From Rathayibacter sp. VKM Ac-2879 (GTDB taxonomy: Bacteria > Actinomycetota > Actinomycetes > Actinomycetales > Microbacteriaceae): 64,000 nt of DNA. Shown in pieces: positions 6,507-51,548 of the stretch (positions are counted from its first letter, which is position 1; the number at the start of each line of letters is the position of its first letter). The notes under the pieces are model-generated. The model saw only the letters and a list, made by a program, of their open reading frames with translations. It was not told the origin of the DNA and ran no database searches. The position numbers and the translations under genes were made by a program. The DNA is taken from contig NZ_JADKSO010000001.1 in the NCBI RefSeq assembly GCF_015351245.1, forward strand, positions 434,001 through 498,000, read 5' to 3'.

Positions 6507-6513
6507 CGTTCAC
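6481..6513. promoter_or_regulatory. Inverted repeat at the vanH start, possible operator
   Basis: GTGAACG (6481-6487) and CGTTCAC (6507-6513) form a perfect 7-base inverted repeat with a 19-base gap. It lies just upstream of the alternative ATG at 6473 and overlaps the GTG at 6506. This is a plausible binding site for a regulator of the operon. Its role is inference. Confidence 0.3.
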
Positions 6514-6554
6514 GTTTTCGGAGATGCTGACGAAACATCGCCTCCTCACCGCCG

Positions 6555-6642
6555 CTCCCCCTCCCGCCGCGAGATGCCACTTATGATGCGCGACACGCCG
6601 AGTGACGTGCTCATAAGTGGCATCTCGCGGCGGGAGGGGGAG
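6555..6642. repeat. Family A palindromic element, copy 2 (near-perfect)
   Basis: Two perfect 32-base arms (6555-6586 and 6611-6642), including CGCGAGATGCCACTTATGA and its complement TCATAAGTGGCATCTCGCG, surround a 24-base centre with CGCGACACGCCGAGTGACG. It lies between the vanH 5' end and the putA stop codon. The length and perfection of the arms suggest a young or selected copy. It could also act as a transcription terminator for putA. Confidence 0.8.
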
Positions 6643-6645
6643 TCG

Positions 6646-9600
6646 TCAGAGCAGCGCGTCCGTCAGGTGGTCGGGGGCGCCGAAGCGGTGGGCCGTGACC
6701 GAGACGGCCTGCTCACGCACGAACGGCAGCAGCTCCAGTCGTCCCGCCTCGGTCGCCTCGCCCGCGTAGACCGCGAGGTCCGGGCGGCCACCGGTGACCG
6801 CCGTCACGGAGGAGGTATCGGCGCCGAGCAGGCGCACCCGGCCGGCCCCGTGCGCGCGCACCCGCGCCTCCCAGGCGCCCTCGTCCTCGACGACCACGCT
6901 CGACGCCACCGCTCCGAGCGCTGCGGCGAGCTGCGGAGGCGGCGCCACTGCACTCGACAGCACGACGCGCGCCTGCGCGGTCGCCGCCGCGACGGCCACA
7001 CGCGCGAGCGAGCCCAGCGGTTCCCCGGTGGCCAGCCGCACCAAGACGGCGGAGTCGTAAGGCCGGTGCCGGAACACGTTCCGCTCGGCCTCGAGCCCCG
7101 TCACATCGCGCGCCGGAGCGATGTGCTCGGCCCACGCGACGGCGCACGAGCGGGCCGTGCGTTCGACGCCGGCCGCCTCCTCTGCCGAGAGCTCGGCGCG
7201 CGCCGCCGCGACGAGACCTGACGCGGCCTGTGCGACGGGAGCCGTCGCCTCCGCCGGCGCCGACCTCCAGGAGCCGAGACCGAGGAGATAGTCCGGCCCG
7301 CCCGCCTTCGTGCCCGGTCCGACGGCCGACTTCTTCCAGCCGCCGAACGGCTGACGCTGCACGATCGCGCCGGTGATCCCGCGGTTCACGTACAGGTTGC
7401 CGGCGTCGATCCCCTCCAGCCATAGGCCGATCTCGGCCGGGTCGAGCGCGTGCAAGCCCGAGGTGAGGCCGTAGTCGACCTCGTTCACGAGCGCGATCGC
7501 CTCGTCGAGCGTCTCGGCGGTCATGATGCCCAGGATCGGGCCGAAGTACTCGGTGCGGTGGTACTCGGAGCCGCGCCGTACGCCGTCGCGCACGCCCGGG
7601 CTCCAGAGGCGGCCGGTGTCGTCGAGCCTGCGCGGCTCGAGCAGCCAGCGCTCGCCGGGGCCGAGCGTCGTCAGGCCGTGCAGGAGCTTGCCCGAGGCCG
7701 GCTCGATCACCGGGCCCATTCGCGAGGCGGGATCGTCCGGCCAGCCGACCGTGAGCGAGGCGACCGCGTCGAGCAGTTGCGCCCGGAACCGCTTCGACCG
7801 GGCGACGGAGCCCACCAGCACGACGAGCGAGGCGGCGGAGCACTTCTGGCCCGCGTGCCCGAAAGCGCTTGCCACCACATCCTTCACCGCACCATCGACA
7901 TCGGCCGAAGGAGTGACCACGATCGCGTTCTTGCCGCTCGTCTCCGCGAGCAGCGGCAGGTCGTCCCGGAACGAACGGAACAGCTCGGCCGTCTCGTAGG
8001 CGCCAGTGAGGATCACGCGATCGACCGCCGGGTGGGCGATGAGGTCTCGGCCCAACTCCTCTTCGGGCAGGCGGAGCAGCCGCAGCGCATCGCGGGGCAC
8101 GCCCGCCGCCCAGAGAGCCTCGGCCACCACGGCCCCGCAGCGCACGGTCGGACCGGCCGGCTTGAGCACGACGGCGGAGCCGGCAGCGAGCGCCGCGAGC
8201 ACGCCGCCGGCCGGGATCGCGACCGGGAAGTTCCACGGCGGAGCGACGACGGTCAGCGCCGCAGGACGGAAGCGTGCGCCGTCGATCGCGTCGAGCTCGC
8301 GGGCGCGCTCCGCGTAGTAATGCGCGAAGTCGATCGCCTCCGAGACCTCCGGATCACCCTGATCGAGCGGCTTGCCGCCCTCGGCAGCCATCACTTCGAG
8401 CAGCTCGGACCGGCGAGCCTCCAGCTCGTCGCCCGCGCGGTGCAGGAGGCGGGCGCGCTCGTCGGCGGGCACGCCTCCCCAGCCGCTGGCATGAGTGGCG
8501 GTGAGCACTGCCTCCAGCTCGTCGCGGCTGCCGATCGTGGCCGCCTCGATCGCGTCGACGCCCGCGCGGGAACCGGGGACACGGGCGAGGATCGCCTGCG
8601 CCCATTCCCGATTCGCGGCGACGGCGGGGTCGGTGTCGGGCGTGCTGCGGAAGTCGCCGAAGCCGGGGCGTCCGGCCGCGGCGAAGCGGTCCGGCACGCG
8701 GTGCGCGGCGGGTACCGCGCCGTCGAGGGCGGCAACGGAGGCGCGGAACCGCTCCTCCTCGCGGGCGAACAGCGCGGGGTCGGCGTCGAGCTCGAAGACG
8801 GCCGACATGAAGTTGTCGCTCGACGCGCCCTCTTCGAGACGGCGGATCAGGTAGGCGATCGCCACGTCGAACTCGGCCGGAGCGACCACCGGCGTATAGA
8901 GCAGGAGCGAGCCGACGCTTCGGCGCACCGCCTCCGCTTGCCCCTGTGCCATGCCGAGGAGCATCTCGTACTCGATGCCTTCGCGGACGCCGCGCTCGCC
9001 CGCGAGCAGCCAGGAGTAGGCGATGTCGAAGAGGTTGTGTCCTGCGATGCCGAGCCGGACGGCGCGGATGCGGTCGGGGTGCAGCGCGTAGTCGAGCACG
9101 CGCTTGTAGTTCGTGTCGGAGTCCTGTTTCGTGCTCCAGGTCGCGAGCGGCCAGCCGTGCACCGAGGCCTCGACCTGTTCCATGGGGAGGTTCGCGCCCT
9201 TCACCAAGCGCACCTTGATCGCGGCGCCGCCGCGCTCGTGTCGCGTTGCGCTCCACTCCTGCAGCCGGATCATCGCCGAGAGGGCGTCAGGAAGGTAGGC
9301 CTGCAGCACGATGCCTGCTTCGAGGCCGAGGAACTCGGGGCGGTCGAGGAGGCGCGTGAAGACCGTGATGGTGAGATCGAGGTCCTTGTACTCCTCCATG
9401 TCGAGGTTGATGAACTTGTGCGGCGAGAAGCCGGCCGCGCGGGCGAACAGTGGTGTCAGCTCCGCCACGATGTCCTCCACGGCGGCGTCGAACGCCCACG
9501 GGTTGTGCGGCGCGACGGTCGACGAGACCTTGATCGAGACGTAGTCGACGTCATCGCGGTCGAGGAGGCGATGGGTGCCCTCGAGTCGGCGCTGCGCCTC

Positions 9601-10098
9601 CGCCCGGCCGAGCACGGCCTCGCCGAGCAAGTTCATGTTCAGGCGCACGCCGTCGCGGCGGATCCTGGCGATGGCAGGACCGAGCCGCGAGTCGCTCGCG
9701 TCGATGATGAGGTGGCCGACCATCCTCCGCAGCATCCGGCGGGCGATCGGCACCACGATGCCCGGCAGGAGCGGCGCCACGATGCCGCCCAGCGCGACGG
9801 CCGCGCGCAGGGGGGCGGGGAGGAACCGGGGCACGCCGCCCGCGATCGAGCGCAGCGCGGAGGCGGCCACGCGGGTGTCTTCCGGGCGGACGACGCCGTC
9901 GACGAAGCCGACGGTGAAGTCGAGGCCGGACGGGTCCTTCAGGACCCCGGCCAGCTGGGCGCCGGAGGCATCGGTCGGAACCTCAGCGGCCTCTCGCAGC
10001 CAACGGCGCACCAGGGCGACGCTGTCGTCGACCAGGCGCGGGTCGACGGAGTCGGGGGAGGGCCCGGTGGGGCGAGGGGAGTCGACGAGATCCGTCAT
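6646..10098 (-). CDS. putA: Bifunctional proline dehydrogenase / glutamate-semialdehyde dehydrogenase PutA
   Basis: A 1150-residue two-domain protein. The N-terminal half is a proline dehydrogenase barrel (DVDYVSIKVSS near residue 180, then KFINLDMEEYKDLDLT, and YEMLLGMAQGQ). The C-terminal half is an aldehyde dehydrogenase with PPWNFPVAIPAGG, LAETSGKNAIVV and the active-site Cys753 in GHAGQKCSAAS. Together they oxidise proline to glutamate through P5C. It lacks the N-terminal ribbon-helix-helix domain that makes some PutA proteins self-regulating, so control in trans by the divergent LysR gene is likely. The last 150 residues are a variable C-terminal extension. Confidence 0.93.
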   Translation of the reverse strand: MTDLVDSPRPTGPSPDSVDPRLVDDSVALVRRWLREAAEVPTDASGAQLAGVLKDPSGLDFTVGFVDGVVRPEDTRVAASALRSIAGGVPRFLPAPLRAAVALGGIVAPLLPGIVVPIARRMLRRMVGHLIIDASDSRLGPAIARIRRDGVRLNMNLLGEAVLGRAEAQRRLEGTHRLLDRDDVDYVSIKVSSTVAPHNPWAFDAAVEDIVAELTPLFARAAGFSPHKFINLDMEEYKDLDLTITVFTRLLDRPEFLGLEAGIVLQAYLPDALSAMIRLQEWSATRHERGGAAIKVRLVKGANLPMEQVEASVHGWPLATWSTKQDSDTNYKRVLDYALHPDRIRAVRLGIAGHNLFDIAYSWLLAGERGVREGIEYEMLLGMAQGQAEAVRRSVGSLLLYTPVVAPAEFDVAIAYLIRRLEEGASSDNFMSAVFELDADPALFAREEERFRASVAALDGAVPAAHRVPDRFAAAGRPGFGDFRSTPDTDPAVAANREWAQAILARVPGSRAGVDAIEAATIGSRDELEAVLTATHASGWGGVPADERARLLHRAGDELEARRSELLEVMAAEGGKPLDQGDPEVSEAIDFAHYYAERARELDAIDGARFRPAALTVVAPPWNFPVAIPAGGVLAALAAGSAVVLKPAGPTVRCGAVVAEALWAAGVPRDALRLLRLPEEELGRDLIAHPAVDRVILTGAYETAELFRSFRDDLPLLAETSGKNAIVVTPSADVDGAVKDVVASAFGHAGQKCSAASLVVLVGSVARSKRFRAQLLDAVASLTVGWPDDPASRMGPVIEPASGKLLHGLTTLGPGERWLLEPRRLDDTGRLWSPGVRDGVRRGSEYHRTEYFGPILGIMTAETLDEAIALVNEVDYGLTSGLHALDPAEIGLWLEGIDAGNLYVNRGITGAIVQRQPFGGWKKSAVGPGTKAGGPDYLLGLGSWRSAPAEATAPVAQAASGLVAAARAELSAEEAAGVERTARSCAVAWAEHIAPARDVTGLEAERNVFRHRPYDSAVLVRLATGEPLGSLARVAVAAATAQARVVLSSAVAPPPQLAAALGAVASSVVVEDEGAWEARVRAHGAGRVRLLGADTSSVTAVTGGRPDLAVYAGEATEAGRLELLPFVREQAVSVTAHRFGAPDHLTDALL

Positions 10099-10175
10099 GA
10101 TGCGGTCCTTCTGCTGCGAGGGTCGGTGTCCTCAGTATTCGGGCGAGTACCGTTGAGCAGAAGCGACCGTTTCTT

Positions 10176-10187
10176 ACCGATATCGGT
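10176..10187. promoter_or_regulatory. Palindrome in the putA/LysR divergent region
   Basis: ACCGATATCGGT is a perfect 12-base palindrome in the 104-base gap between divergent putA and the LysR gene, 16 bases ahead of the LysR ATG. A GACCG half-site lies 11 bases before it. This fits a LysR-type operator that represses the regulator and activates putA. The role is inferred from position. Confidence 0.5.
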
Positions 10188-10202
10188 CAACTAATCTGAT
10201 GA

Positions 10203-11105
10203 ATGGAGCGTGCCGTGCTCGATGTCCGCCGGCTGGTCCTGCTCCGGGAGGTCGCTATCCGCGGCACCCTCGCCGCCGCCGCCGAGGCGCTGGCCTACAG
10301 TCCCTCTGCCGTGTCGCAGCAGCTCACCGTGCTCGAGCGTGAGACCGGGGTCGAATTGCTGCGCAAGGTCGGCCGGCGCGTGCAGCTCACTCCGCAGGCC
10401 GAGATCTTGGTCGCGGCGGCGGGTGAGGTGCTCGCGCTGCTCGAGCGCGCGGAGGCGGCGCTCGCCGCGTCCGGCGAGTCGGTCACGGGCCGCGTCCGAG
10501 TCGCGGTGTTCCAGTCGGCGGCGCTCGCGCTGATGCCGGGAGCGCTGCGGGCGGTCGCCGAGCGCTTCCCCGAGGTGCGGGTCGAGATGGTGCAGCGCGA
10601 GCCGGAGGGTGCGCTGCACGAGACGTCGTGGGCGCGAGAGTTCGACCTCGTGGTGGCCGAGCAGTATCCCGGGCACTCGACCTCGTGGCTGCCCGGTCTG
10701 GTGCGCAGCGACCTCACGACCGATGCGATCCGTCTCGCGGTGAGCCGCGACTCCGCGATCGCCTCGTTGGCCGACGCCCGGGACGAGCCGTGGGTGATGG
10801 AGCCGCGAGGCACGGCGAGCCGCCACTTCGCCGAGCAGAGTTGCCGCCTCGCCGGTTTCGAGCCGGACGTGCGCTTCGAGACCGCCGATCTACAGGCGCA
10901 GATCCGCCTGGCCGCCTCGGGCAACGCCGTCGCGCTGATGCCCGATCTGGTCTGGGCGGGCGCGGAGCCCGACTGCCGCCTCCTCGACCTGCCGCGTCGC
11001 CCCCGCCGCACGATTTTCACGGCCCAGCGGGAGGCGGGCCTTGCCTCGCCCGCCGTCCGCGTCTTCCGCGACTGCCTCGCCGAGGTCGCTGCGGCCCACG
11101 TCTGA
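10203..11105 (+). CDS. LysR family transcriptional regulator, probable putA regulator
   Basis: A 300-residue LysR-type protein. The winged helix-turn-helix spans about residues 8-65 (GTLAAAAEALAYSPSAVSQQLTVLERETGVELL), followed by a linker helix and a two-lobed effector domain (GRVRVAVFQSAALALMPGAL to the C-terminus). It is transcribed away from putA across a short gap with a palindrome. By the usual rule for divergent LysR genes it likely controls putA in response to proline or P5C. The start could also be the GTG at 10215, giving a more family-like MLDVRRL start. Its 3' end meets a family A palindrome shared with the next gene. Confidence 0.88.
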   Translation: MERAVLDVRRLVLLREVAIRGTLAAAAEALAYSPSAVSQQLTVLERETGVELLRKVGRRVQLTPQAEILVAAAGEVLALLERAEAALAASGESVTGRVRVAVFQSAALALMPGALRAVAERFPEVRVEMVQREPEGALHETSWAREFDLVVAEQYPGHSTSWLPGLVRSDLTTDAIRLAVSRDSAIASLADARDEPWVMEPRGTASRHFAEQSCRLAGFEPDVRFETADLQAQIRLAASGNAVALMPDLVWAGAEPDCRLLDLPRRPRRTIFTAQREAGLASPAVRVFRDCLAEVAAAHV

Positions 11106-11197: not shown

Positions 11198-12432
11198 CGG
11201 GAGCGGGAGCGGGCGGGCGCGAGCGCGCCGCCGGGCAGGCGATCAGCCACGGCGTGGACGCGGCGGCTGATGAACGCCTCCAGGGGTCCGCGCCGCCCCG
11301 TGCGGAGGAGGTAGGCGCCGACCGCCAGGGCCGCTGCGGTATGGATCGCAATGGCGCCGGGGCCGAACGACCACCAGGGTGCCCCCTTCGTCGGGACGAG
11401 AATAGTCAGCAAGATCAGTGCGTCGATGCCGAAGAAGTGGGCGACATAGAGCGTCAGCGGCGCCGATCCAGCCCGGGCGACGACAGCGAGCGGGAGCGGC
11501 AGCGGAGAGCGCAGGAGGGGCACGAGGAGGAGGAGGACGGCGAGCACGAAGAGCGCGACTCCGCCCGTTCGCAGAATATCGGCGGTCGTCCCGGTGTGCG
11601 GCGCGGCGCTGAGCACCGCGATCCAGCCGCCGCCCAACGGCGTCCCGAATCCTTGAGCGGTGGTCAGCTCGCGGGCCTTGTCTGCGGTCTGCCCGGTTGC
11701 GATCAGTGCGGCGGTCACCAGTGGTCGGCTGAGGAGGTCGGCGGTGGCGCCGGCGGCGGCCATGACGGCTCCCGAGAGCAGAAGGGTCAGTGCAGCGCGC
11801 CGGGGTCGCGCCGCTCGGACGAGGAGGCGACCGGCGCAGACCCCGAAAAGGAGGAACGTGATCCAGGTCACGCCCGGGTAGAAGCCGGTGAACAGGACTG
11901 TCTGAAGGAAGTCGAGCGGAGAAGCGAGCGAGGGAAAGGGGATCGCCCCCGTGGGCCCCGTGCTCCTCGCCCACAGGATCAGATGCGGGCTCGCGAGGGT
12001 CAGGGTCGCTGCGAGGGTGAGCAGCGCGCCGGTCGGTAGCCAGATCAGGCAGGCGACGACGATCAAGGCGACGCCGTAGTAGGAGAGCACCATCACGATG
12101 AACGACGGAACTGCACCGAGGGCCAGCCCGATCAGCGCGAGGAGGACGCCGCGGACCGCGACGGACACGCACGCGGCGAGAGTCCTCCCCTCCTCGAGGA
12201 GGCGCCGGGTCGACACGACGACGCTGACTCCTCCGAGGACCGCGAACAGAGTGGAGGGGAAGCCCGTCACGACGGCCAGGACCGGCCCGGGTGCTTTGCC
12301 GAGCAACAGGTGCTCGCTGAACATCCCCAGCAGCGCGAGGAATCGGGCGAGGTCGAGAGCGACGATCCTGTCAGGCTGCCAGGGTGTGGCCGCCGGCCGG
12401 AGGAGGGCCGAGAGACGGGTGGCGAGGCGCAT
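11170..12432 (-). CDS. HGSNAT/DUF418-like membrane protein (putative acyltransferase)
   Basis: A 420-residue integral membrane protein with about ten hydrophobic segments. The N-terminal RIVALDLARFLALLGMFSEHLL is the entry motif of the heparan-alpha-glucosaminide N-acetyltransferase catalytic-domain family, and SAPLTLYVAHFFGIDALI near residue 345 is the matching C-terminal motif. In bacteria these proteins may acylate cell-surface sugars, with unknown substrate. The ATG at 12432 was chosen because AAAGGA lies eight bases upstream; a longer frame starts at 12459. The final residues RSREMPPLR are coded by a palindromic repeat, suggesting that the original stop codon was replaced when the element arrived. 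Confidence 0.75.
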   Translation of the reverse strand: MRLATRLSALLRPAATPWQPDRIVALDLARFLALLGMFSEHLLLGKAPGPVLAVVTGFPSTLFAVLGGVSVVVSTRRLLEEGRTLAACVSVAVRGVLLALIGLALGAVPSFIVMVLSYYGVALIVVACLIWLPTGALLTLAATLTLASPHLILWARSTGPTGAIPFPSLASPLDFLQTVLFTGFYPGVTWITFLLFGVCAGRLLVRAARPRRAALTLLLSGAVMAAAGATADLLSRPLVTAALIATGQTADKARELTTAQGFGTPLGGGWIAVLSAAPHTGTTADILRTGGVALFVLAVLLLLVPLLRSPLPLPLAVVARAGSAPLTLYVAHFFGIDALILLTILVPTKGAPWWSFGPGAIAIHTAAALAVGAYLLRTGRRGPLEAFISRRVHAVADRLPGGALAPARSRSRSREMPPLR

Positions 12433-12580
12433 GGTGAGAGTCCTTTCGACGTAAGGCACCAGACTGCGGGGGTGAGCCAGGCGAGCGCATCGACCGCCAA
12501 GATGAGGTGGGCTCGCCGAAGGATGACGTCTGAAGGGCGGCGTCGAAGCGGTCGGGACAGGACGACGCAGGCGAGGCGCG

Positions 12581-13189
12581 TCAGCCGAGCGCGAGCGATG
12601 CCGCTAGCGCCAGCATCAGCACCGCGACTGCCGCATCCAGTGCCCGCCACGCCACGCGACTCCGGAACAGCGGCCGCAACACCCGCGCGCCGAACCCGAG
12701 CGCGGTGAACCAGAGCACGCTGCCGCACGCCGCTCCCGCACCGAACCACCAGCGCTCGTCGCCGTGCGTGTTCGCGACCGAGCCCAGCAGCACCACAGTG
12801 TCGAGGTAGACGTGCGGATTGAGCAGCGTCAGCGCGAGGCAGGTGCCCACCGCCGTCCGCAGCGACGTGGAGGCGCCCGCCGGGTCGCCGTCGAGGGTTC
12901 CGGGTCGCACTGCCCGCCGCGCGGCGAGTGCCGCGTACGCCAGGAGGAAGAGGATGCCGCCCCAGCGGATCACGACGAGCAGCCCCGGCGCCGAGTCGAG
13001 CATCGCGCCGATTCCCGCGATGCCGAGGACGATCAGCCCCGCATCGGCCGCGGCGCAGATCGCGACGACGGCGGGCACGTGCTCGCGACGCAGACCCTGG
13101 CGCAGCACGAAGGCGTTCTGCGCACCGATCGCGACGATGAGCGAGAGGCCGAAGCCGAGGCCTGACAGTGCGGCGAGGAGAGGGGTCAC
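12581..13189 (-). CDS. LysE/ArgO family amino-acid exporter
   Basis: A 202-residue membrane protein with six predicted helices. Family marks are GLSLIVAIGAQNAFVLRQGLRREHV at residues 14-38 and LALTLLNPHVYLDTVVLLG near the middle. LysE/ArgO proteins export lysine or arginine when internal pools rise. The gene is divergent from an ArgP/LysG-like regulator 68 bases away, the classical pairing, so the effector is most likely lysine or arginine. Confidence 0.9.
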   Translation of the reverse strand: MTPLLAALSGLGFGLSLIVAIGAQNAFVLRQGLRREHVPAVVAICAAADAGLIVLGIAGIGAMLDSAPGLLVVIRWGGILFLLAYAALAARRAVRPGTLDGDPAGASTSLRTAVGTCLALTLLNPHVYLDTVVLLGSVANTHGDERWWFGAGAACGSVLWFTALGFGARVLRPLFRSRVAWRALDAAVAVLMLALAASLALG

Positions 13190-31808: not shown

Positions 31809-31876
31809 CACAACGTCAGCTGAGACGCTGTCGCGCGCACCATCGTGGCTGAGGCGGCGTCTCAGCTGACGTTGTG
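31809..31876. repeat. Family B 68-bp palindromic element, copy 2
   Basis: Perfect 20-base arms: CACAACGTCAGCTGAGACGC (31809-31828) and its complement at 31857-31876. The centre has CGCGCACCATCGTGGCTGAG, identical to copy 1. It lies between the aldehyde dehydrogenase gene and the first tandem-repeat protein gene. Confidence 0.85.
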
Positions 31877-32035: not shown

Positions 32036-33151
32036 TCAGCTGCAGGTGGGATCGACCACATAGGTGGCGATGTCGGCATTGGTCGAGTCGACGTGCTCGC
32101 CGACGGCGGAGGAGACGTTGGAAGCGACGGGGGTGGTGCGGATCTTCCACCAGAGTTCGCCGTTGACGAGGAAGAAGCCGTAGCCGACGGCGGTGGCGTT
32201 GGCGGGGATCTGGTCGTAGGTGTCAAACCGTCCGTTTGAGTTCCATTGGTAGCTTTTTCCGTTGGCCTCGAAGGTGGCGACGTCGGCATTCAGCGAGTCG
32301 ACGTGTTGTCCGACGGCGGAGGTGACTCCGGTGATGACGGGGGTGGTGCGGCCCTTCCACCAGAGTTCGCCGTTGACGAGGAAGAAGCCGTAGCCGACGG
32401 CGGTGGCGTTGGCGGGAATGTTCGGGTAGGTGTTGAGCTGTCCGTTTGAGTTCCATTGGTAGCTGGTTCCGTTGGCCTCGACGGTGGCGACGTCGGCATT
32501 CAGCGAGTCGACGTGTTGTCCGACGGCGGAGGTGACTCCGGTGATGACGGGGGTGGTGCGGCCCTTCCACCAGAGTTCGCCGTTGACGAGGAAGAAACCG
32601 TAGCCGACCGCCTTCGCGCCGGACGGAATATTCGAATAGGTCTCGAGCTGTCCGGTCGAGCGCCACTGATAGTTGCCCCCACCTGGCGCCGCTGTTGCGG
32701 AGACGGGTGCGGTGGTGCCGAGCGAGTCGGAGGCGGCGGCGAAGGTGCTGGTGCCGCCCTTCGCGGGGACGCTGATGGCGGGGAGGGTGATGAGTCCGTT
32801 GGAGTCTGTTGTCGCTGAGTGGCTGGTGGAGCCGTCGGAGAAGGTGTAGCCGTCGGTGAGGGTGACGGTGATGGTTTTTCCGGGGTCGGGTGTGGTGCCG
32901 TCGGTGGTGCGTCGTACTTGGACGCCGGTGATGGTGCTGCAGCCTTGGCCGGTGTAGGAGTTTTGGGTGAATCTGAGGGTGGGTGTGCCAGAGGCTGCGG
33001 CGGCAGGGGTGGCGGTGGCGACGGCGACGGCGGGGAGGGTCCAGGCGACGCCTTTCACCAGGGTGCGGCGATGGACGCCGTCCTCGGCGGGAATGCTCCA
33101 GCCGGTGAGCGGAGCCGCGCTGTCGCGGGATTCGGAGGGGTTCTTGGTCAT
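32036..33151 (-). CDS. Tat-exported tandem-repeat protein 1
   Basis: A 371-residue secreted protein. The N-terminus has a twin-arginine signal (HRRTLVKGVAW, Arg28-Arg29) ending in ATPAAAA near residue 53. Residues 55-150 look like a beta-sandwich (bacterial Ig-like) domain: TITGVQVRRTTDGTTPDPGK, then DGYTFSDGSTSHSATTDSNG. Three repeats of exactly 70 residues follow (161-230, 231-300, 301-370), each with AVGYGFFLVNGELWWK and SAVGQHVDSLNADVAT. Cys71 and Cys370 are the only cysteines I see, and the paralogue at 35759 has them in the same places, which suggests a disulfide joining the first and last domains. No wall-sorting motif or membrane anchor was seen. The function is unknown; a divergent AraC gene lies upstream. 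Confidence 0.8.
   Translation of the reverse strand: MTKNPSESRDSAAPLTGWSIPAEDGVHRRTLVKGVAWTLPAVAVATATPAAAASGTPTLRFTQNSYTGQGCSTITGVQVRRTTDGTTPDPGKTITVTLTDGYTFSDGSTSHSATTDSNGLITLPAISVPAKGGTSTFAAASDSLGTTAPVSATAAPGGGNYQWRSTGQLETYSNIPSGAKAVGYGFFLVNGELWWKGRTTPVITGVTSAVGQHVDSLNADVATVEANGTSYQWNSNGQLNTYPNIPANATAVGYGFFLVNGELWWKGRTTPVITGVTSAVGQHVDSLNADVATFEANGKSYQWNSNGRFDTYDQIPANATAVGYGFFLVNGELWWKIRTTPVASNVSSAVGEHVDSTNADIATYVVDPTCS
32042..32671 (-). repeat. Three 210-bp in-gene repeats
   Basis: The coding repeats are 210 bp each (32462-32671, 32252-32461, 32042-32251). More than 100 bases around 32281-32385 are identical to those 210 bases further on, while other parts have diverged. The landmark CGTTGACGAGGAAGAA recurs at 32161, 32371 and 32581. 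Such similarity at DNA level points to recent duplication or gene conversion. Confidence 0.9.
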
Positions 33152-33763
33152 GTGCTCGAACTTTCATCATGGAGAAGGGGGGCAGGGGAATCATCGCCAG
33201 CTCCCGCCTCCGCACGCCCTCGTCTGACCGTTATTTGATTGCTCGTTGCCGGAAAGAGCCGCCGTGCCGTGGCTGTGGCGGTATCGATGAGGAGGCGGGG
33301 GCTCGGTGTCACGAGAATGTGGCGGAGTTCTCTGGAGTGGAGGAACCGGCGGCGATGCCGGCCACTATTGCCAGCGGCGCGTCGCTCTCGAGGCGAGAAG
33401 GGCGACTTTGTGAGGCTCAGTGCAATAAGACACACCGAGTGGGGCGTATAGACACATGAATGTGCGGGTCTTCTCGAGGAGGCGGGCGGTCGTGGCCGAG
33501 CTGTCGACAGCGCGGCATCGAGCGTCGTCCGTCTGAAAATGACCCCTGTTTGGGGGTTGTTACTACGGGCTGAGGGGCTGAACTGCGCCCACCGGCTCCC
33601 TCCTTGAGTGCTTTTAGCGGCCGCTTATTGCACACCGTTCGCCGGAAAGTGTGGCCGACTATCGCGTCCGAGGTGCTGTGGTCAGAATCGAGCGGGTGCC
33701 CCCACGCCCTCCGAGGGCCCATTTCTGCCTTGTGCCGACTATTGAGGGATATCTGAAAGGCGT
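33152..33763. promoter_or_regulatory. Long divergent control region with inverted repeat
   Basis: This 612-base region separates repeat protein 1 from its AraC gene; the paralogous gap at 37154 is only 158 bases. GTGCAATAAG (33420-33429) and CTTATTGCAC (33624-33633) are a perfect inverted repeat 194 bases apart, possibly two regulator half-sites. The leader GAAAGTTCGAGCACATG (minus strand) before the repeat-protein start is the same as in the second module. No convincing gene was seen. Confidence 0.4.
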
Positions 33764-34711
33764 ATGTCAATGCGGATGGCTCGCCAAAAATACTCGCTCC
33801 AGGGTGACGCTGCACAGGAATGGCTCGTCGAACGTCACTTTCTCGGTGATGTCGGTCCGGGTTTCAGACTCGTCTCCGACGAGATTGAATTCCCTGAATA
33901 TCGCGCGACGAGGGTGTGGCATACCGAAGGTCGATACCTTATCGAGCGCTCGTCTCCTTCTGCCCTGATTCTCCTGCAGATCGAGGGGCGGTCGACGCTC
34001 GCGTCGCCGCAGTGGGAGGAGACCAAGCAGCTCGGGCCCGGCGACGTCGCTGTCCTCCCGGCGGCCTCCGCCTCGTACTCCTTCTCCGCCCAGGGACCAG
34101 TCGCGCGGTATCAAATCGAATGCAGCCTCGCCGGGCTTCCCCTCGTCGCGCGCTCCGACATCATGTCCGGGAGGATCTACTCAGGACTCTCGAAAGAATA
34201 TCGGGATGCCGTGGTAGCGGCGGCGAATATCGCACTGAATTCGACGATGAGCCGGGGCGAGGCGGGTTTCGCGGACTTTGGAATGGGACTGAGGCATCTC
34301 ACGGCGGCCCTTCTTCAGCACGCCTTCGACACGTCGGCCCCTGTGGGCCCGAACGCCGTGAGCCCCCTGCACCACGCCGCTCTTCGCGTCATCGCCACAC
34401 GGGCCACGGATGCCGATTTCGATGTCACGATGCTCGCCGACGCCGTCGGGACCTCGCCGCGTAACCTCCGCCACGTCTTCGCCCAGGCGGGCAGCTGGGC
34501 CAAGGTCGAGCTGACCGCCGAACGCGTACGACGCGCTCGCGCCTATCTCGCGCAGTCGGTCGGCAACCCCCAGTTCACCCCGGCCGAGATCGCTCGGCTC
34601 TCGGGATTCCGCGATGTCCGTGCCCTGACCCGCGCGCTGGCCAAGCATGACGGTGAGGCCCCGCCCCCGCGAGGAGGTCGGCAGCGGCGGGACGATACGA
34701 CCCGGACCTGA
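33764..34711 (+). CDS. AraC family regulator of module 1
   Basis: A 315-residue AraC-type regulator. The N-terminal cupin-like effector domain has FRLVSDEIEF, TRVWHTEGRYLIERSS and GPGDVAVLPAASASYSF, as in the AraC_binding_2 type. The C-terminal DNA-binding domain has FDVTMLADAVGTSPRNLRHVFAQAGSWAK and a second helix-turn-helix PAEIARLSGFRDVRALTRALAK. It is divergent from repeat protein 1 and closely similar to the regulator at 37312, which is divergent from repeat protein 2. It probably controls the neighbouring repeat protein. The ATG at 33764 may be replaced by the next one at 33770. Confidence 0.85.
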   Translation: MSMRMARQKYSLQGDAAQEWLVERHFLGDVGPGFRLVSDEIEFPEYRATRVWHTEGRYLIERSSPSALILLQIEGRSTLASPQWEETKQLGPGDVAVLPAASASYSFSAQGPVARYQIECSLAGLPLVARSDIMSGRIYSGLSKEYRDAVVAAANIALNSTMSRGEAGFADFGMGLRHLTAALLQHAFDTSAPVGPNAVSPLHHAALRVIATRATDADFDVTMLADAVGTSPRNLRHVFAQAGSWAKVELTAERVRRARAYLAQSVGNPQFTPAEIARLSGFRDVRALTRALAKHDGEAPPPRGGRQRRDDTTRT

Positions 34712-34760
34712 GTCAGAGCCCGCGCTCGATCGAGGACGTCGCTGTGCGAGCCGGCACCGA

Positions 34761-34828
34761 CACGACGTCAGCTGAGACGTCGACTCGCGCGCCATCGTGC
34801 GCGAGAGAGCGTCTCAGCTGACGTTCTG
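34761..34828. repeat. Family B 68-bp palindromic element, copy 3
   Basis: CACGACGTCAGCTGAGACG and CGTCTCAGCTGACGTTCTG end the element with one mismatched pair. The centre has CGCGCGCCATCGTGCGCGAG, in the same orientation as copies 1 and 2. It lies between the AraC gene and the HVA1-like gene; in the paralogous module these two stops are only two bases apart, so this element is an insertion. Confidence 0.82.
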
Positions 34829-34839
34829 CGCTCGGGCCG

Positions 34840-35037
34840 TCACCTCGTCGTCAGCGACGACTCCTTGTGTGCCGCCCTCGCGCCGGTCTTTTCGCTCTGC
34901 ACGATCCGGTACGGTTCGTCGTCGGAGGCGGTGGACTTCTGCCCGTCGAACCGGAACTCCTTCGTCTTGTTCTCGATCAGCTCGCCGTGGGTTTCGCCCT
35001 GCGAGGTGTTCCAGCTGACCGCATCGCCTTTCTTCAC
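34840..35037 (-). CDS. HVA1/TUDOR-type small protein, copy 1
   Basis: A 65-residue protein starting at a GTG with AGGAAG upstream: MKKGDAVSWNTSQGETHGEL, then ENKTKEFRFDGQK and DDEPYRIVQSEKT. This is the small hypervirulence-associated (DUF2945) SH3/TUDOR-like fold. Its biochemical role is unknown in bacteria. It is a close paralogue of the gene at 38216, but without that gene's upstream partner. Confidence 0.8.
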   Translation of the reverse strand: MKKGDAVSWNTSQGETHGELIENKTKEFRFDGQKSTASDDEPYRIVQSEKTGARAAHKESSLTTR

Positions 35038-35067
35038 GAGGTGCTTCCTCTCTCTCGCTCCGGCGTT

Positions 35068-35341
35068 TGATGTTGCGGCTCTGGCGGCGACGCAGAGCAT
35101 GACTCCGCGCTGGCTCCAGATGGCGTTCGCCGAGCGGGGGCTGACGCCGCGTCGGGCGATTCGTCTTGAGCGCACTCGTGCGGCGCACGGGGTCCTCGAG
35201 GCGGACCGTGGTCTCACCCTCGACGAGGTGGCGCGGCGTACCGGTTTCCCGTCGGCGCGTGCGCTGAGGCAGGCTTTGCGCACGTTCGGCGAGACGGGTG
35301 ACCTCGGTTTGCTGGCGACGAACGACCCCGGAAGGGCCTGA
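35068..35341 (+). pseudogene. AraC-type DNA-binding domain fragment
   Basis: The segment ALAATQSMTPRWLQMAFAER, followed by GLTLDEVARRTGFPSARALRQAL, is the two-helix-turn-helix end of an AraC regulator. No effector domain precedes it: upstream, on the other strand, is the HVA1 gene. It is unlike the DNA-binding ends of the two intact AraC genes here, so it comes from a different regulator. It appears to be a remnant at the junction of the duplicated modules. Confidence 0.6.
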
Positions 35342-35515
35342 ACGTCCAAGGAGCCTCCTGCCTGGACGACACGCTGCTCTGCGTCTTCGACCCTGTGCCG
35401 GGCGCACGCCACAACCGGGCCGCGATCACGCTCTGCGGCTGGGAGTCGATCCTGGACGCAACCGCCTGGATCGAGGTTTTTGAGGCTCCGAGCGAGCTGT
35501 CTTTCTCGATGCAAA

Positions 35516-35556
35516 AAGTGTGGGGGTGCCGGACCGAGTCCGGCACCCCCACACTT
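35516..35556 (-). terminator. Strong intrinsic terminator
   Basis: AAGTGTGGGGGTGCCGGA (35516-35533) and TCCGGCACCCCCACACTT (35539-35556) pair perfectly around CCGAG. On the minus strand the stem runs into TTTTT, so it stops minus-strand transcription from the repeat protein 2 gene at 35759 and the short frame at 35563. Confidence 0.88.
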
Positions 35557-35562
35557 CTGAGG

Positions 35563-35718
35563 TTAGTACTGCCGCTGATCGACTGCGAGCGGGGGCTTCT
35601 TATAGCCGATCATGTTGGTGCTGTTCTGCTGGGAATTGGGGATAAACCCGCGCTGGAGGTGTCCACCCCGGTCTCGGTTCCCTTCAATGGGCGACTCTCT
35701 CGCCTTCTGAAGTGAGAA
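35563..35718 (-). other. Short open frame or gene remnant before the terminator
   Basis: An open minus-strand frame of 51 codons ends GYKKPPLAVDQRQY, seven bases before a strong terminator. It has no ATG, GTG or TTG start before an internal ATG, so it may be the tail of a lost gene. Its base use is less GC-rich than nearby genes. I do not recognise it. The rest of the 35342-35515 stretch holds no visible gene. Confidence 0.35.
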
Positions 35719-35758
35719 CTACATCACTCGCGTGAACTTCTGAAGACGCGTGAGGCGA

Positions 35759-37153
35759 TCAGCAGCTGGAGTTGCTCGACGTCACGTAGTCCATGTAGAA
35801 GCCGTTCGTCGAGTCGTACGCGATCTGCGAGGCAGAGGTGACGTTGCTGTCCACGAGCTGGCCGCCATTATACAGCTTTCCGTCCGAGGTCAGGAACATT
35901 CGGTCTCCGAGTGCCGTGGCGCCGGTGAAACCAGAGGCCTGCTTGGTGACTGTTCCGGTCGCGTCGCCGGACTTCCGGTAGTACGTGTAGACGTCTCCGG
36001 TGGTCGTGACATAGTCCATGTAAACGCCGTTTTGACTGTCATACTCGACCTGAGACGCTGATGCGACACCCGTCGCTATGCTCGTCGTCCCCGTTTTGAG
36101 TTCGCCTGAAGACGTCAGGTAAAGGGTGTCGCCAAGAGCCGTGGCTCCCGTCTGGCCGGTGGTGATGGCGCTGCTCGAGCCGGTTGTCTGGTCAGACTGC
36201 TTGTAGAACTGACGTACTTCCCCGGTCTTGGTGACGTAGTCGATATAGATGTTATTAGCGCTGTCGTAATTCACCTGCGAGACAGACGCGACATCAGTTC
36301 CGATAGCCTGCGAATCGAAGAACAGGGATCCACCGGACGTCAGGTAGATGCCGTCTCCGTATGCGGTGGCATCGGTCTGGCCGGATGTAATCAGGCTGCT
36401 CGACCCCGTGTTGCTAGTCCCATCCTTCTTGAAGATGCGGACGTCGCCGCTCTTCGTGACGTAGTTCAGGAACAGATTGTTCTTCGAGTCATATTCGATC
36501 TGCGAGACGGAGGTGACGTTCGAGTCAATCAACTGGGGGGCGCCGGTAGGAGCGCCGTTGTAAAGCATGCCGTCCGACGTGAGGAAGATCGCGTCGCCGT
36601 AGACGGTCGCATCCTTGTAGCCGGCGCGAATGAGGCTGCTGGAGCCCGTCGATGAATTCGCTGGCTTGTGGAAGCCTCGAACGGCGTAGGCCGTTGAGGT
36701 GACCGGCGCCGAGGCCGCGAGCGTATCCGACGTCGCGTTGAACATGGTCGACTTCTCGCCGGTCGGAACGTTGATGTTCGGGAGGGTGATGAGCCCCGAG
36801 CTGTTTGTGGTCGCGGAATAGGTCGTGGTGCCGTCAGCGAAGGTGAAACCATCCTTCAGCGTCACGGTCACAACCTTGCCCGCGTCGGGCGTGGTGCCGT
36901 CTGTCGTGCGCTTGACCTGCACGCCGGTGATGGTCTCGCATCCGTTACCGGTGTAAGAGCCCTGCGTGAACTCCAGCTTCGGCGTCGCCGACGCCGCAGC
37001 GGCCGGCGTCGCGACCGCGACGGCGACAACGGGGATGGTCCAGGCGGCGCCCTTGACGATGGTGCGGCGGTGGACGCCGTCCTCGGCGGGGATGGTCCAC
37101 TCGGAGAGGGGTGACCCGACGTCGCGGAACTTGTCGAAGGAATTTTTTGTCAT
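35759..37153 (-). CDS. Tat-exported tandem-repeat protein 2
   Basis: A 464-residue secreted paralogue of the gene at 32036. The ATG at 37153 starts MTKNSFDKFRDVGSPLSEW; the Tat signal is HRRTIVKGAAW (Arg29-Arg30) with a cut near ATPAAAA. The Ig-like domain (TITGVQVKRTTDGTTPDAGK) is closely alike in both proteins. Four repeats of about 75-80 residues begin near 170, 250, 325 and 400, each with GDxxYLTSxGxL, then VASVSQVNYDS and YxDYVTxTG. These align with the repeats of protein 1 (for example VTSAVGQHVDS), so the repeat fold is shared though diverged. The cysteines are Cys72 and the last residue Cys464. The function is unknown. The gene is visibly less GC-rich than its surroundings. Confidence 0.8.
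   Translation of the reverse strand: MTKNSFDKFRDVGSPLSEWTIPAEDGVHRRTIVKGAAWTIPVVAVAVATPAAAASATPKLEFTQGSYTGNGCETITGVQVKRTTDGTTPDAGKVVTVTLKDGFTFADGTTTYSATTNSSGLITLPNINVPTGEKSTMFNATSDTLAASAPVTSTAYAVRGFHKPANSSTGSSSLIRAGYKDATVYGDAIFLTSDGMLYNGAPTGAPQLIDSNVTSVSQIEYDSKNNLFLNYVTKSGDVRIFKKDGTSNTGSSSLITSGQTDATAYGDGIYLTSGGSLFFDSQAIGTDVASVSQVNYDSANNIYIDYVTKTGEVRQFYKQSDQTTGSSSAITTGQTGATALGDTLYLTSSGELKTGTTSIATGVASASQVEYDSQNGVYMDYVTTTGDVYTYYRKSGDATGTVTKQASGFTGATALGDRMFLTSDGKLYNGGQLVDSNVTSASQIAYDSTNGFYMDYVTSSNSSC
35762..36646 (-). repeat. Four diverged coding repeats of repeat protein 2
   Basis: Each unit is 75-80 residues and begins with a TGSSS-like segment (less clear in the fourth) and ends after a DYVT strand. 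At DNA level they are much more diverged than the 210-bp repeats of protein 1, so this array is older. Confidence 0.75.
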
Positions 37154-37311
37154 GTGCTCGAACTTTCGTCTGTGATGAGGGGGACAGACGAAGCATTGCC
37201 AGGTCAGCGAGGCACACGACCCGCTGGGCCGCAAATGGTTCTGTCGGGGCCGGAAATTGCGATCACGGTAGCCCCTGGGCGATACCTGCGCAGACGATTA
37301 CTCTTGGGCTT

Positions 37312-38214
37312 ATGGCCCCCGATTCACTACGCCGTAAATTCTCTCTGCAAGGCGACGATGCCCAGCAATGGCTAGCCGAGAGAGACTTTTTTGGAGAATT
37401 CGATACGACTTTCCGGCTTGTGTCGGACGAGATCAGCTTCGAGGGTTTCGGAGCCGCCCGCGTGTGGCACAGCGAGGGGTCATACGAGATTGACCGCCGC
37501 TCACCCACGGCCCTCTTGATCGTGCAGATCGAGGGCGAGTCGACCCTCCAGGTGCAGACCTGGGGTGAGGCGGCGAGGGTCATCAGCCCGGGCGACGTTG
37601 CGGTCCTCCCTGGTGGGGGGGCACCGTTCCAGTTCGCTGCTACCCGCCCGGTCGCGAGATACCAGATCGAGTTCGATCTGGCCGGACTTCCTGCCCAAAC
37701 ACGCCTCGAACTCGAGCTCGGGATGGTGTTCGCTCAACCCGTGAAGACGTATCGCGACGCCGTCGCGGCGACCGCGAACATCGCGCTCAATTCCGCGATG
37801 GTCGACAAGGAGGCGGGGTTCGCCGACTTCGGGTTGGGGCTCCGACATCTTACGACGGCGCTTCTGCTGCACGCTCTCGCGGCCACGGCGCCGGAGCACT
37901 CGGAAGACACCGAAAGTCTGCACCGCGCGGCGCTCAGGGTGATCGCGATGCGGGCGACCGACCCCGATTTCACGGTAGAAGCGCTCGCTCGGGCGATCGG
38001 CAGGTCGCCACGTAACCTGCGGCACATTTTCGCTCAGGCCGGCTCCTCTGCAAAGACCGCGCTCACTGAGGAGCGGGTTCGGCGGGCACGCAGCCATTTC
38101 GGCATAACGGAAAACGGACAGCTTTTCACCGCACCAGAGATCGCCCAACTGGCCGGTTTCCGGGATGTGCGGGCACTGCGCCGCGCCCTCGCGAAGGACG
38201 AGGATGCCGAATAG
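37312..38214 (+). CDS. AraC family regulator of module 2
   Basis: A 300-residue AraC-type regulator, close paralogue of the one at 33764. The effector domain has FRLVSDEISFEGFGAARVWHSEG and SPGDVAVLPGGGAPFQF; the DNA-binding end has FTVEALARAIGRSPRNLRHIFAQAGSSAK and APEIAQLAGFRDVRALRRALAK. It is divergent from repeat protein 2 across 158 bases and ends two bases from the HVA1-like gene. It most likely controls the divergent gene. Confidence 0.87.
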   Translation: MAPDSLRRKFSLQGDDAQQWLAERDFFGEFDTTFRLVSDEISFEGFGAARVWHSEGSYEIDRRSPTALLIVQIEGESTLQVQTWGEAARVISPGDVAVLPGGGAPFQFAATRPVARYQIEFDLAGLPAQTRLELELGMVFAQPVKTYRDAVAATANIALNSAMVDKEAGFADFGLGLRHLTTALLLHALAATAPEHSEDTESLHRAALRVIAMRATDPDFTVEALARAIGRSPRNLRHIFAQAGSSAKTALTEERVRRARSHFGITENGQLFTAPEIAQLAGFRDVRALRRALAKDEDAE

Positions 38215-38215
38215 G

Positions 38216-38413
38216 TTACTTCTTCGTCAGCGACGACTCTTTGTGCGCGGCCTTCGCTTCCGTCTTATCGCTCTGCACGATCCAGTACGGTTCGTCCTCC
38301 GAGGCGTTGAATTTCTGCCCCTCGAAGTGGAACTCTTTCGTCTTCTTTTCCACGAGCTCCCCGTGAGTCTCGCCCTGCGAGGTGTTCCAGGTGATCTTGT
38401 CGCCCTTCTTCAC
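38216..38413 (-). CDS. HVA1/TUDOR-type small protein, copy 2
   Basis: A 65-residue protein: MKKGDKITWNTSQGETHGEL, EKKTKEFHFEGQK and EDEPYWIVQSDKT. It belongs to the small hypervirulence-associated (DUF2945) SH3/TUDOR-like fold and closely matches the copy at 34840. Its GTG start overlaps the stop of the 222-residue gene upstream (GTGA), so it is translated as the last gene of a glgX operon. This is probably the original location of the gene. Confidence 0.82.
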   Translation of the reverse strand: MKKGDKITWNTSQGETHGELVEKKTKEFHFEGQKFNASEDEPYWIVQSDKTEAKAAHKESSLTKK

Positions 38414-49063: not shown

Positions 49064-49591
49064 GGTGGCACCGTACGCGAGCGGAGGATCGCTCGGCCCC
49101 CGCTTGACGGCGGGCCCCGCGTGCCGGTGCATGCGGCTTCCGCGCTCGGCGGAAAGGGGAGAAGAAAGTCCCCCCTTTCTGGTGTGCCTCGAAAGAGTGT
49201 CGAAAAGAGAAGAAGGATGAGAAAAGGGCGCCTCCCCCTCGTTGGGGTGTGACCCGAACGAGTGCGGAATCAGTCGTGAGTGGCACTGATATCACGGCAA
49301 AAGTACCCATCCTTCGAGGAATACCAGGAATATCAATTGCTGGGACGACGGAATTCGCACTAGAGTCGCCATGTTCATGCAGCTGCATGTACTGCGGCAC
49401 CCGAAGCCGCGCTGCAGGTCGTATGAGCCGCAGCACCCTCTCTCCTTCCGGGGTGGAACCCGAATCTCCACCCCGGACGGAGCGGTCCCGTCACCGTCGT
49501 GGATTCGCAGGCACTGCCGTGCGTCCACGCCGACGCTGGACCGAGCCCCCCGCACACCCGCCCCCGCACACCCGCCCTGGAGCCCTTTCGC
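49064..49591. promoter_or_regulatory. Intergenic region upstream of Tat-exported protein 3
   Basis: A 528-base gap. It holds a perfect 14-base palindrome CATGCAGCTGCATG (49376-49389) and an AT-richer stretch near 49300-49370 that may hold the promoter. No gene was seen. Confidence 0.35.
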
Positions 49592-50266
49592 ATGTCCGCA
49601 CTCCCTCAGGGGGGTGACTCCGGCGCGCTCACGCGCGTCACGGAGCACTCCACCGTGCCCTCGACCACCACGACCACCGGACGCCGGACGCTCATGCGGG
49701 CCGCCCTCTGGAGCGCGCCCGTCGTCGCCGTCGCGCTCGCCACTCCGGCCGCCGCCGCATCAGGGGGCGGATCGAGCAAGCCGACCCCCACCCCCACTCC
49801 CTCGGCTCCGCCCGTGCCCGTGGGATCGACCTCGACCCTCCTCTTCGACACCTGGCAGAGCAACGCCCACTGGGACAACGCGGGGCATCGCACGGGGATC
49901 GACACCCTCATCCAGATCCAGAACAGCTACTGGACGGGTCACGGCAAGAACACAGTGATCGGCGCGCCCGTGCCCATCCTCTCTGTCTCGGTGCTCTACC
50001 CCGCCTCCTGCCGCGTCACCGGCGCGCCGACGGCACTCACCGGCTCGGGCTGGAGCTTCACGACGATCGCCGCCCGTGGCGAGGGCGCGGTCGAGTACAT
50101 CTTCACGTGGTCGGGACCGGCGCTCCAGCCTTCGAAGTCGACCCCCCAGCTGAGCTACACGGTTGCCGCGACGCTGCCGCGCGGGCAGGCCCAGCTCACG
50201 GCCGACGCCTCCGCCCCTAACGCGGACAAGGTCAAGGCACCCGCATACGGCAACACGCTGTACTGA
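49592..50266 (+). CDS. Tat-exported protein 3
   Basis: A 224-residue secreted protein. Its Tat signal GRRTLMRAALWSAPVVAVALATPAAAAS (only ends quoted: GRRTLMRAALW and ATPAAAAS; Arg31-Arg32) is of the same special type as those at 32036 and 35759. A Pro/Thr linker follows, then a beta-rich domain (STLLFDTWQSNAHWDNAG, ending ADKVKAPAYGNTLY). There are no tandem repeats. It shares the export signal but not the body of the repeat proteins. Function unknown. Confidence 0.72.
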   Translation: MSALPQGGDSGALTRVTEHSTVPSTTTTTGRRTLMRAALWSAPVVAVALATPAAAASGGGSSKPTPTPTPSAPPVPVGSTSTLLFDTWQSNAHWDNAGHRTGIDTLIQIQNSYWTGHGKNTVIGAPVPILSVSVLYPASCRVTGAPTALTGSGWSFTTIAARGEGAVEYIFTWSGPALQPSKSTPQLSYTVAATLPRGQAQLTADASAPNADKVKAPAYGNTLY

Positions 50267-51480: not shown

Positions 51481-51548
51481 CACAACGTCAGCTGAGACGG
51501 CCGCTCAGCGACGATCGTGTGCGAGGGGCCGTCTCAACTGACGTTGTG
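51481..51548. repeat. Family B 68-bp palindromic element, copy 4
   Basis: CACAACGTCAGCTGAGACGG (51481-51500) and CCGTCTCAACTGACGTTGTG (51529-51548) pair with one mismatch. The centre CAGCGACGATCGTGTGCGAG keeps the ATCGTG core in the same orientation as the others. It lies between the acidic protein gene and the DoxX-like gene. Confidence 0.82.

Follow-up and report, generated by a model that had tools for sequence, protein, structure and literature searches.

Head-to-head genes for AraC-type regulators and probable Tat-exported propeller proteins in Rathayibacter: a recurrent pair with a conserved leader and a variable, predicted binding part

Cassettes that join an AraC-family regulator gene, head to head, to a gene for a protein with a twin-arginine translocation (Tat) leader form a large family in plant-associated Rathayibacter, in which the export tag and the layout are kept and the binding part varies. 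Two such cassettes lie at positions 32036 to 38413 of the window, the 64,000-nucleotide stretch of Rathayibacter sp. VKM Ac-2879 DNA analysed here (G+C content 70.6%). The pair of a Tat-exported protein and a divergent AraC-type regulator is well supported as the conserved unit, and it is real, recurrent, structurally interpretable and did not come up in the literature searched. The cassettes probably, if far from securely, constitute a repertoire of AraC-controlled, secreted and diversified binders that is renewed by amplification and exchange.

Two cassettes in the window and their recurrence

The window cassettes comprise the following features.

32036..33151, minus strand: copy 1 exported protein, 371 amino acids, with a Tat leader (residues 1-54), a predicted invasin-like immunoglobulin (Ig) domain (about 56-155) and a probable six-bladed propeller (about 156-371)
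32062..32691, minus strand: three 210-nucleotide (70-amino-acid) units of two predicted blades each, within the copy 1 exported-protein gene
33152..33763: copy 1 divergent intergenic region, where promoters and operators are expected
33764..34711, plus strand: copy 1 AraC-family regulator, 315 amino acids, with a weakly cupin-like N-terminus and a C-terminal HTH_18 domain
34840..35037, minus strand: copy 1 Hva1_TUDOR gene, 65 amino acids, the extra copy
35081..35284, plus strand: AraC helix-turn-helix remnant between the copies (HTH_18 E-value 2e-7, under the Pfam cut-off)
35759..37153, minus strand: copy 2 exported protein, 464 amino acids, with a Tat leader, Ig domain and eight-bladed propeller (predicted)
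36689..37153, minus strand: copy 2 leader and Ig-domain coding region, along which identity to Rathayibacter iranicus drops from 95% to background
37154..37311: copy 2 divergent intergenic region
37312..38214, plus strand: copy 2 AraC-family regulator, 300 amino acids, 94% identical to the same-locus R. iranicus regulator
38216..38413, minus strand: copy 2 Hva1_TUDOR gene, in a position common to R. iranicus and genome G004

The original prediction had described two paralogous copies of a three-gene module, and all six genes were found in the order and on the strands given above, with protein identities between the copies of 43% for the exported proteins (393 columns, E 3e-60), 59% for the regulators (E 2e-108) and 75% for the Hva1 proteins (E 6e-37). 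Likeness between the two exported proteins is uneven, reaching 68% over the first 155 residues and falling to about 31% in the propeller regions, far below the leaders and N-terminal domains (N-domains). The AraC remnant between the copies was missed by the earlier account.

Recurrence of the pair was assessed in 33 stretches around the stronger hits of the family together with loci L001 and L002 and the window, 36 sources in all, which yielded 47 genes with a near-complete N-domain, weaker hits being left out. A pair was defined as an AraC-family gene lying head to head with the family gene at a distance of -150 to 1500 nucleotides. Such a partner accompanies 34 of the 47 family genes. The 15 genomes of the genus set contain 296 HTH_18 matches in 61 Mb, a density at which chance alone would yield about 0.2 pairs among 47 genes; a threefold density would yield 0.6. 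The corresponding p-value is indicative only, tandem copies not being independent. Paired cassettes are present in 10 of the 15 genomes as well as in the window. Among the window regulators, P0003 matches HTH_18 above the cut-off (E 1.6e-8) and P0006 below it (E 1.1e-5; 26.0 versus 33.6 bits), and several family regulators give weak matches to cupin or AraC-binding domains.

Some regulator genes of the family deviate from the common arrangement. At the G004 locus corresponding to copy 2 (L039, 12913-13837) the regulator appears in two overlapping frames and looks disrupted, and the propeller gene is intact. The same genome carries, on contig C1 at 2855861, 2719231 and 2895680, cassette-like AraC genes in front of which no gene with a Tat leader was found, one of them very close to the window regulators (E 4e-108). 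In R. iranicus (L001), a second regulator lies at 12108-12944, near a contig end.

Every one of these 15 genomes has a match to a profile of leader and N-domain. The mature N-domain used by itself likewise finds matches in all 15, at 1 to 12 per genome and at least two in 13 genomes; a few of these matches are weak and are to larger, different proteins. Beyond the genus, the N-domain was detected at E 1e-5 in 19 of 398 Microbacteriaceae genomes, nine of them outside the genus set, and at 1e-6 in 5 of 396 genomes of the order, G004 included, in searches that scored at most 12 candidates per genome and are therefore likely to have missed members. Head-to-head cassettes also occur in genomes G322 (L102) and G701 (L142). 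No match to protein P0002 was obtained in 72,556 plasmid records at E 1e-8, and none of 29 pattern matches in viral contigs was confirmed. The repeats may break assemblies, which could explain why several family genes are found close to or at the end of a contig. A role in anti-phage defence was also considered and set aside: PADLOC returned a single weak match, to Csx19 (E 0.0087), on P0002.

Predicted architecture of the exported proteins

Both window proteins begin with a twin-arginine leader, HRRTLVK or HRRTIVK, followed by a hydrophobic stretch and AAAAS, and the two arginines are invariant among 28 aligned family members; judged from this leader, the passenger proteins are likely to be exported by the Tat pathway. 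Behind it, the structure models contain an Ig-like sandwich of about 95 residues and then radial four-stranded blades that close into a ring, as in a beta-propeller. Copy 1, whose gene holds three 210-nucleotide repeats (86% and 73% identical to the reference repeat), is probably a six-bladed propeller behind an invasin-like Ig domain. For copy 2, with repeats spaced at 225 nucleotides, a period of 75 residues, an eight-bladed propeller behind the same kind of domain is a good prediction; in its model, strands from the beginning of the domain close off the final blade, and the predicted strands place blades of about 28 and about 44 residues in alternation. The proteins had been called unlike any nameable family, which stands at the level of sequence, where neither reaches the cut-off of any Pfam or NCBIfam family, and falls at the level of structure, where an Ig domain and a propeller are predicted. 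A role in binding as secreted proteins is compatible with this predicted fold. Big_1 matches 2 of the 28 members (best E 8e-5) and neither window protein; the other scattered Pfam and NCBIfam matches, confined to one or two members, were taken as chance.

In 39 of 45 members the protein has two cysteines and no more, the first in the N-domain and the second within the last three residues; two of the 47 rows were dropped (a short remnant and a gene cut by a contig end). The pattern is broken by six members: four RCC1-like proteins, one with a different type of passenger and one reading frame whose end is extended. The two cysteines are probably joined, in which case they would clamp the end of the propeller to the Ig domain; the predicted bonds would be Cys71-Cys370 in copy 1 and Cys72-Cys464 in copy 2.

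Other passengers occur behind similar leaders. Shorter proteins without repeats follow the same leader type and face a head-to-head AraC match in G004 at 2873540 and in L064 at 9846-10673. In L065, at 5801-6790, a family-like leader and N-domain precede a different C-terminal part with its own cysteines, in which no propeller was discerned by eye. The window itself holds a third gene (49427-50263, plus strand) with a leader of the same Tat type and another passenger that lacks these repeats.

Unequal divergence and blade amplification

Variation increases from the leader towards the propeller. Alignment entropy over 28 members is 0.76 bits in the leader, 1.5-1.6 in the Ig domain and 2.5 in the propeller, and mean identity between family genes of one genome (40 genes, 95 pairs) is 77% for the leader core, 52% for the N-domain and 30% for the propeller.

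Across 28 cassettes the repeated unit measures 68-90 residues. There are about four units in 24 of them, four of which retain hardly any internal identity, and about three in window copy 1, L053 and L059; the remaining gene is cut. Unit numbers near four or three imply eight or six blades. In 18 of the 28 genes the repeats resemble one another more than the best propeller of any other gene. Where repeats are more than 40% identical (22 genes), the same residue is encoded by the same codon in 43% to 99% of cases, compared with about 50% between genes; the counts are 142 of 143 in L053, 94 of 107 in window copy 1 and 43 of 100 in window copy 2. Because 94 of its 107 matching residues share a codon, the units of copy 1 appear to have been amplified fairly recently, and the likeness of repeats within genes together with the spread in codon agreement indicates that units were amplified independently and at different times. 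This agrees with the account of other highly repetitive propellers in the available part of PMC9218822 (section 12). No close donor for the copy 1 propeller was found in the 15 genomes, eight of which gave matches, at 23-40% identity.

Re-pairing of regulators and passengers

Across 28 cassettes whose regulator is near-complete, a Mantel comparison finds regulator identity correlated with that of the N-domain (r 0.29, p 0.0005) and not detectably with that of the propeller (r 0.05, p 0.21); for N-domain against propeller, r is 0.13 (p 0.056). Individual loci give the clearer evidence. R. iranicus shares the gene neighbourhood of the window, with a flanking glycogen-debranching region 82-94% identical per 100 nucleotides of DNA, and at the copy 2 locus its regulator protein is 94% identical and its propeller 28%. 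At the DNA level, most of the regulator there is 87-95% identical and the leader 95-97%; past the leader, identity falls to 79, 71 and 58% and then to 27-42% in the propeller. The comparison of the window with G004 is reversed: the regulator is 68-82% identical, the intergenic region about 50%, the leader 91-92% and the span from Ig domain through propeller 64-87%.

Two arrays shared by genomes G015 and G003 are likewise mosaic. The L061 cassette of G015 adjoins a 4.8-kb flank 90.6% identical to G003, and its regulator and leader start match the second G003 cassette (78.6% over 1559 nucleotides), its leader and N-domain match the first (87.8% over 329 nucleotides) and third (82.6% over 351 nucleotides), and its propeller has no blastn match there. 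In the second array, whose flanks are syntenic (89-93% identical on one side and 83-85% on the opposite side), the first G015 regulator matches the first of G003 (80.8% over 1232 nucleotides), and the first G015 passenger beyond the leader matches the second and fifth only in a few pieces (69-83%, 66-327 nucleotides). Leader matches of about 80-155 nucleotides, at 75-92%, recur among otherwise unlike cassettes. Homologous exchange at the leader and the N-domain, unequal exchange included, would be expected to leave mosaics of this kind, and such exchange is well supported, subject to a caveat about assembly.

Proposed mechanism and alternative explanations

The mechanism proposed would begin with an AraC protein that senses a small molecule through its weakly cupin-like ligand domain and switches on the neighbouring gene. 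The folded product would leave the cell by the Tat route, directed by the strongly conserved leader, and present a propeller of six or eight blades on an Ig-like stalk; the propeller may bind a glycan or protein on plant, nematode or competitor surfaces. The binding surface would vary among paralogs, and new specificities could arise either by amplification of a two-blade unit within a gene or by homologous recombination in or close to the segment of leader and Ig domain, placing a new passenger behind an existing regulator. The retention of several cassettes with separate regulators per genome suggests conditional use of different binders. A stronger form, regarded as possible and not as the expected outcome, would have the family act as a true diversification system: an AraC-gated cassette bank in which the segment of Tat leader and Ig domain serves as a recombination joint, passengers (mostly propellers, with other folds too) are moved behind different sensors, so that the links between incoming signal and outgoing binder are re-wired, and blade amplification renews the surfaces.

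Several observations weigh against the reading of the cassettes as regulated, exchangeable binders. A head-to-head AraC gene is missing from 13 of the 47 family genes, among them a 124-residue remnant, one protein with another passenger and four similar RCC1-like proteins (in G008, G010, G012 and G013). Six of the 34 pairs are more than 600 nucleotides apart, partly because only a piece of the AraC gene was aligned, and the L054 pair spans 1328 nucleotides with another AraC frame in between. No shared operator motif emerged, k-mer counts yielding GC-rich words and the stretch just 5' of the start codon. The copy 1 model is the less certain, with a predicted template modelling score of 0.58 and predicted local distance difference test values below 50 at residues 157-169; Foldseek gave poor superpositions overall (among the matches listed, no TM-score normalised by query length exceeded 0.39), the top match listed being a yeast tRNA methyltransferase complex protein, and sequence searches of the PDB gave no credible relative (best E 0.075 and 0.18). 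Codon agreement in the leaders is barely above baseline (0.555 versus about 0.52), so that strong recent homogenisation of the leader DNA is not supported. The missing correlation between AraC and propeller is weak on its own because most propellers are near background identity, and the argument is therefore carried by the mosaic loci; R. iranicus and G015 are multi-contig records in which misassembly at repeats is possible, and the contigs that carry the G003 and G004 loci are 3.9 and 3.1 Mb long.

The cassettes could instead be grouped or judged differently. That all three genes form one functional module, as first proposed, is largely refuted and now highly improbable. Both window copies do hold all three, and both small genes belong to Hva1_TUDOR (PF11160; E 3e-16 and 4e-18). 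The co-occurrence search in other genomes, for which a lack of recurrence had been named as the damaging result, recovered the pairing of exported protein and AraC regulator, and Hva1 did not follow it: the gene is present exactly once in each of the 15 genomes, adjoins a cassette in only two (R. iranicus, G001, and G004), and appears in only three of the 36 sources, the window, L001 and L039. In the other 13 genomes it is 190 kb or more away from the closest N-domain match or on a separate contig; in draft genomes, separate contigs could still be neighbours. Hva1 is accordingly excluded from the recurrent cassette and judged to be a neighbouring gene, duplicated here as a passenger of the duplication. 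It is improbable, too, that the cassettes are mostly decaying or drifting duplicates without selected diversity, exchange being a by-product of tandem repeats. Remnants and disruptions are indeed known (the AraC remnant of the window, the two-frame regulator of G004 and the 124-residue passenger), but the two-cysteine pattern is kept in most members, and unit numbers stay near three or four and so preserve whole propellers.

Other alternatives concern what the propellers do. They might act, in the manner of BLIP-II, as secreted protein inhibitors each matched to a single host or competitor enzyme, instead of as lectins; this is unlikely, given that lectins, a lyase and WD40 domains all fall within one Z unit among the structure matches, that no solved chain gave a credible sequence match, and that the near-identical symmetric units of many members would be better suited to a repeating ligand, for example a glycan, than to a single protein surface. 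About as unlikely is a role as the targeting arms of an antagonism particle, comparable to the UmbA lectins of the Streptomyces umbrella toxins, the Ig domain then serving to dock the protein to a further component. The available part of PMC13274773 describes a shared logic of a conserved N-terminal domain, a variable C-terminal lectin domain that is often a propeller and diverges down to 20-30% identity, and paralogs in actinobacteria, and the propellers of the present family average 29-30% identity; against this, what precedes the propeller in the models is an Ig domain and not a trypsin-like one.

Relation to described systems

By analogy, the closest described logic appears to be that of the UmbA set, the parts being different. 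In the portion of PMC13274773 available, UmbA proteins are secreted actinobacterial proteins with paralogs in many genomes and an exchangeable passenger, the variable lectin domain, which sets the target of the toxin. Here, a Tat leader and a predicted Ig-like domain take the place of the trypsin-like domain, genes are commonly faced by an AraC gene of their own, and regulator and passenger are re-paired in nature.

The RCC1/BLIP-II propellers resemble the family in predicted fold, in being secreted and in including highly repetitive members (PMC9218822, in the part available; 3qhy), and differ in that an AraC partner is present here and no RCC1 Pfam match is found in the window proteins. RCC1 repeats exceed the Pfam cut-off in five of ten scanned relatives with the same Tat-Ig layout, and RCC1 is absent from the Pfam matches of P0001 and P0002 up to E 1 and from the 25 of 71 families listed for the 28 members. 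In hhalign comparisons, the family (34 sequences) aligned with 11 RCC1-like relatives at 71% (E 3.6e-5, 56 columns), a moderate match, with shuffled controls at 0.1% or less and a reversed control at 1%; against the two clearest RCC1 proteins no match was obtained (1.2%), and the window propellers alone gave 0.7% and 0.4% against the RCC1-like relatives. To propeller lectins of the PLL, RSL and Aleuria types no sequence relation was found, and the alternating blade lengths predicted for copy 2 set it apart from them. Compared with the Ig-like domains of invasin and intimin, the domain here is single and lies within a Tat-exported protein. The cassette family was not found, among the matches listed, in open-licence PMC literature on Rathayibacter, on AraC or twin-arginine systems of Microbacteriaceae, on BLIP-II/RCC1, or on AraC-linked or repetitive propellers.

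A palindromic element near cassette 1

A 60-nucleotide palindromic element with ACGTCAGCTGAGACG arms occurs three times in the window, once at 51485-51544 and twice so as to bracket the exported-protein and AraC genes of copy 1:

31813..31872: first element, downstream of cassette 1
34765..34824: second copy, on the other side of cassette 1

The arm motif has seven matches in the window with at most two mismatches, against 0.3 expected, and the exact 60-nucleotide palindrome was not found in the 15 related genomes.

Implications

Adherence of Rathayibacter toxicus to the cuticle of nematodes compatible with it has been reported, and the available text of that report (PMC5552033) names no adhesin; adhesion to nematodes or plants would be an attractive setting for the cassettes (PMC5552033 and PMC6965331, as far as their available parts go). 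If the proposed reading is true, a genus that includes nematode-carried plant bacteria holds a repertoire of individually regulated, fast-diversifying secreted binders, and the family would supply candidates for surface recognition in Rathayibacter. It would also provide a natural test-bed for the birth of propellers through blade amplification and a case of regulator and effector being uncoupled by recombination near an export leader.

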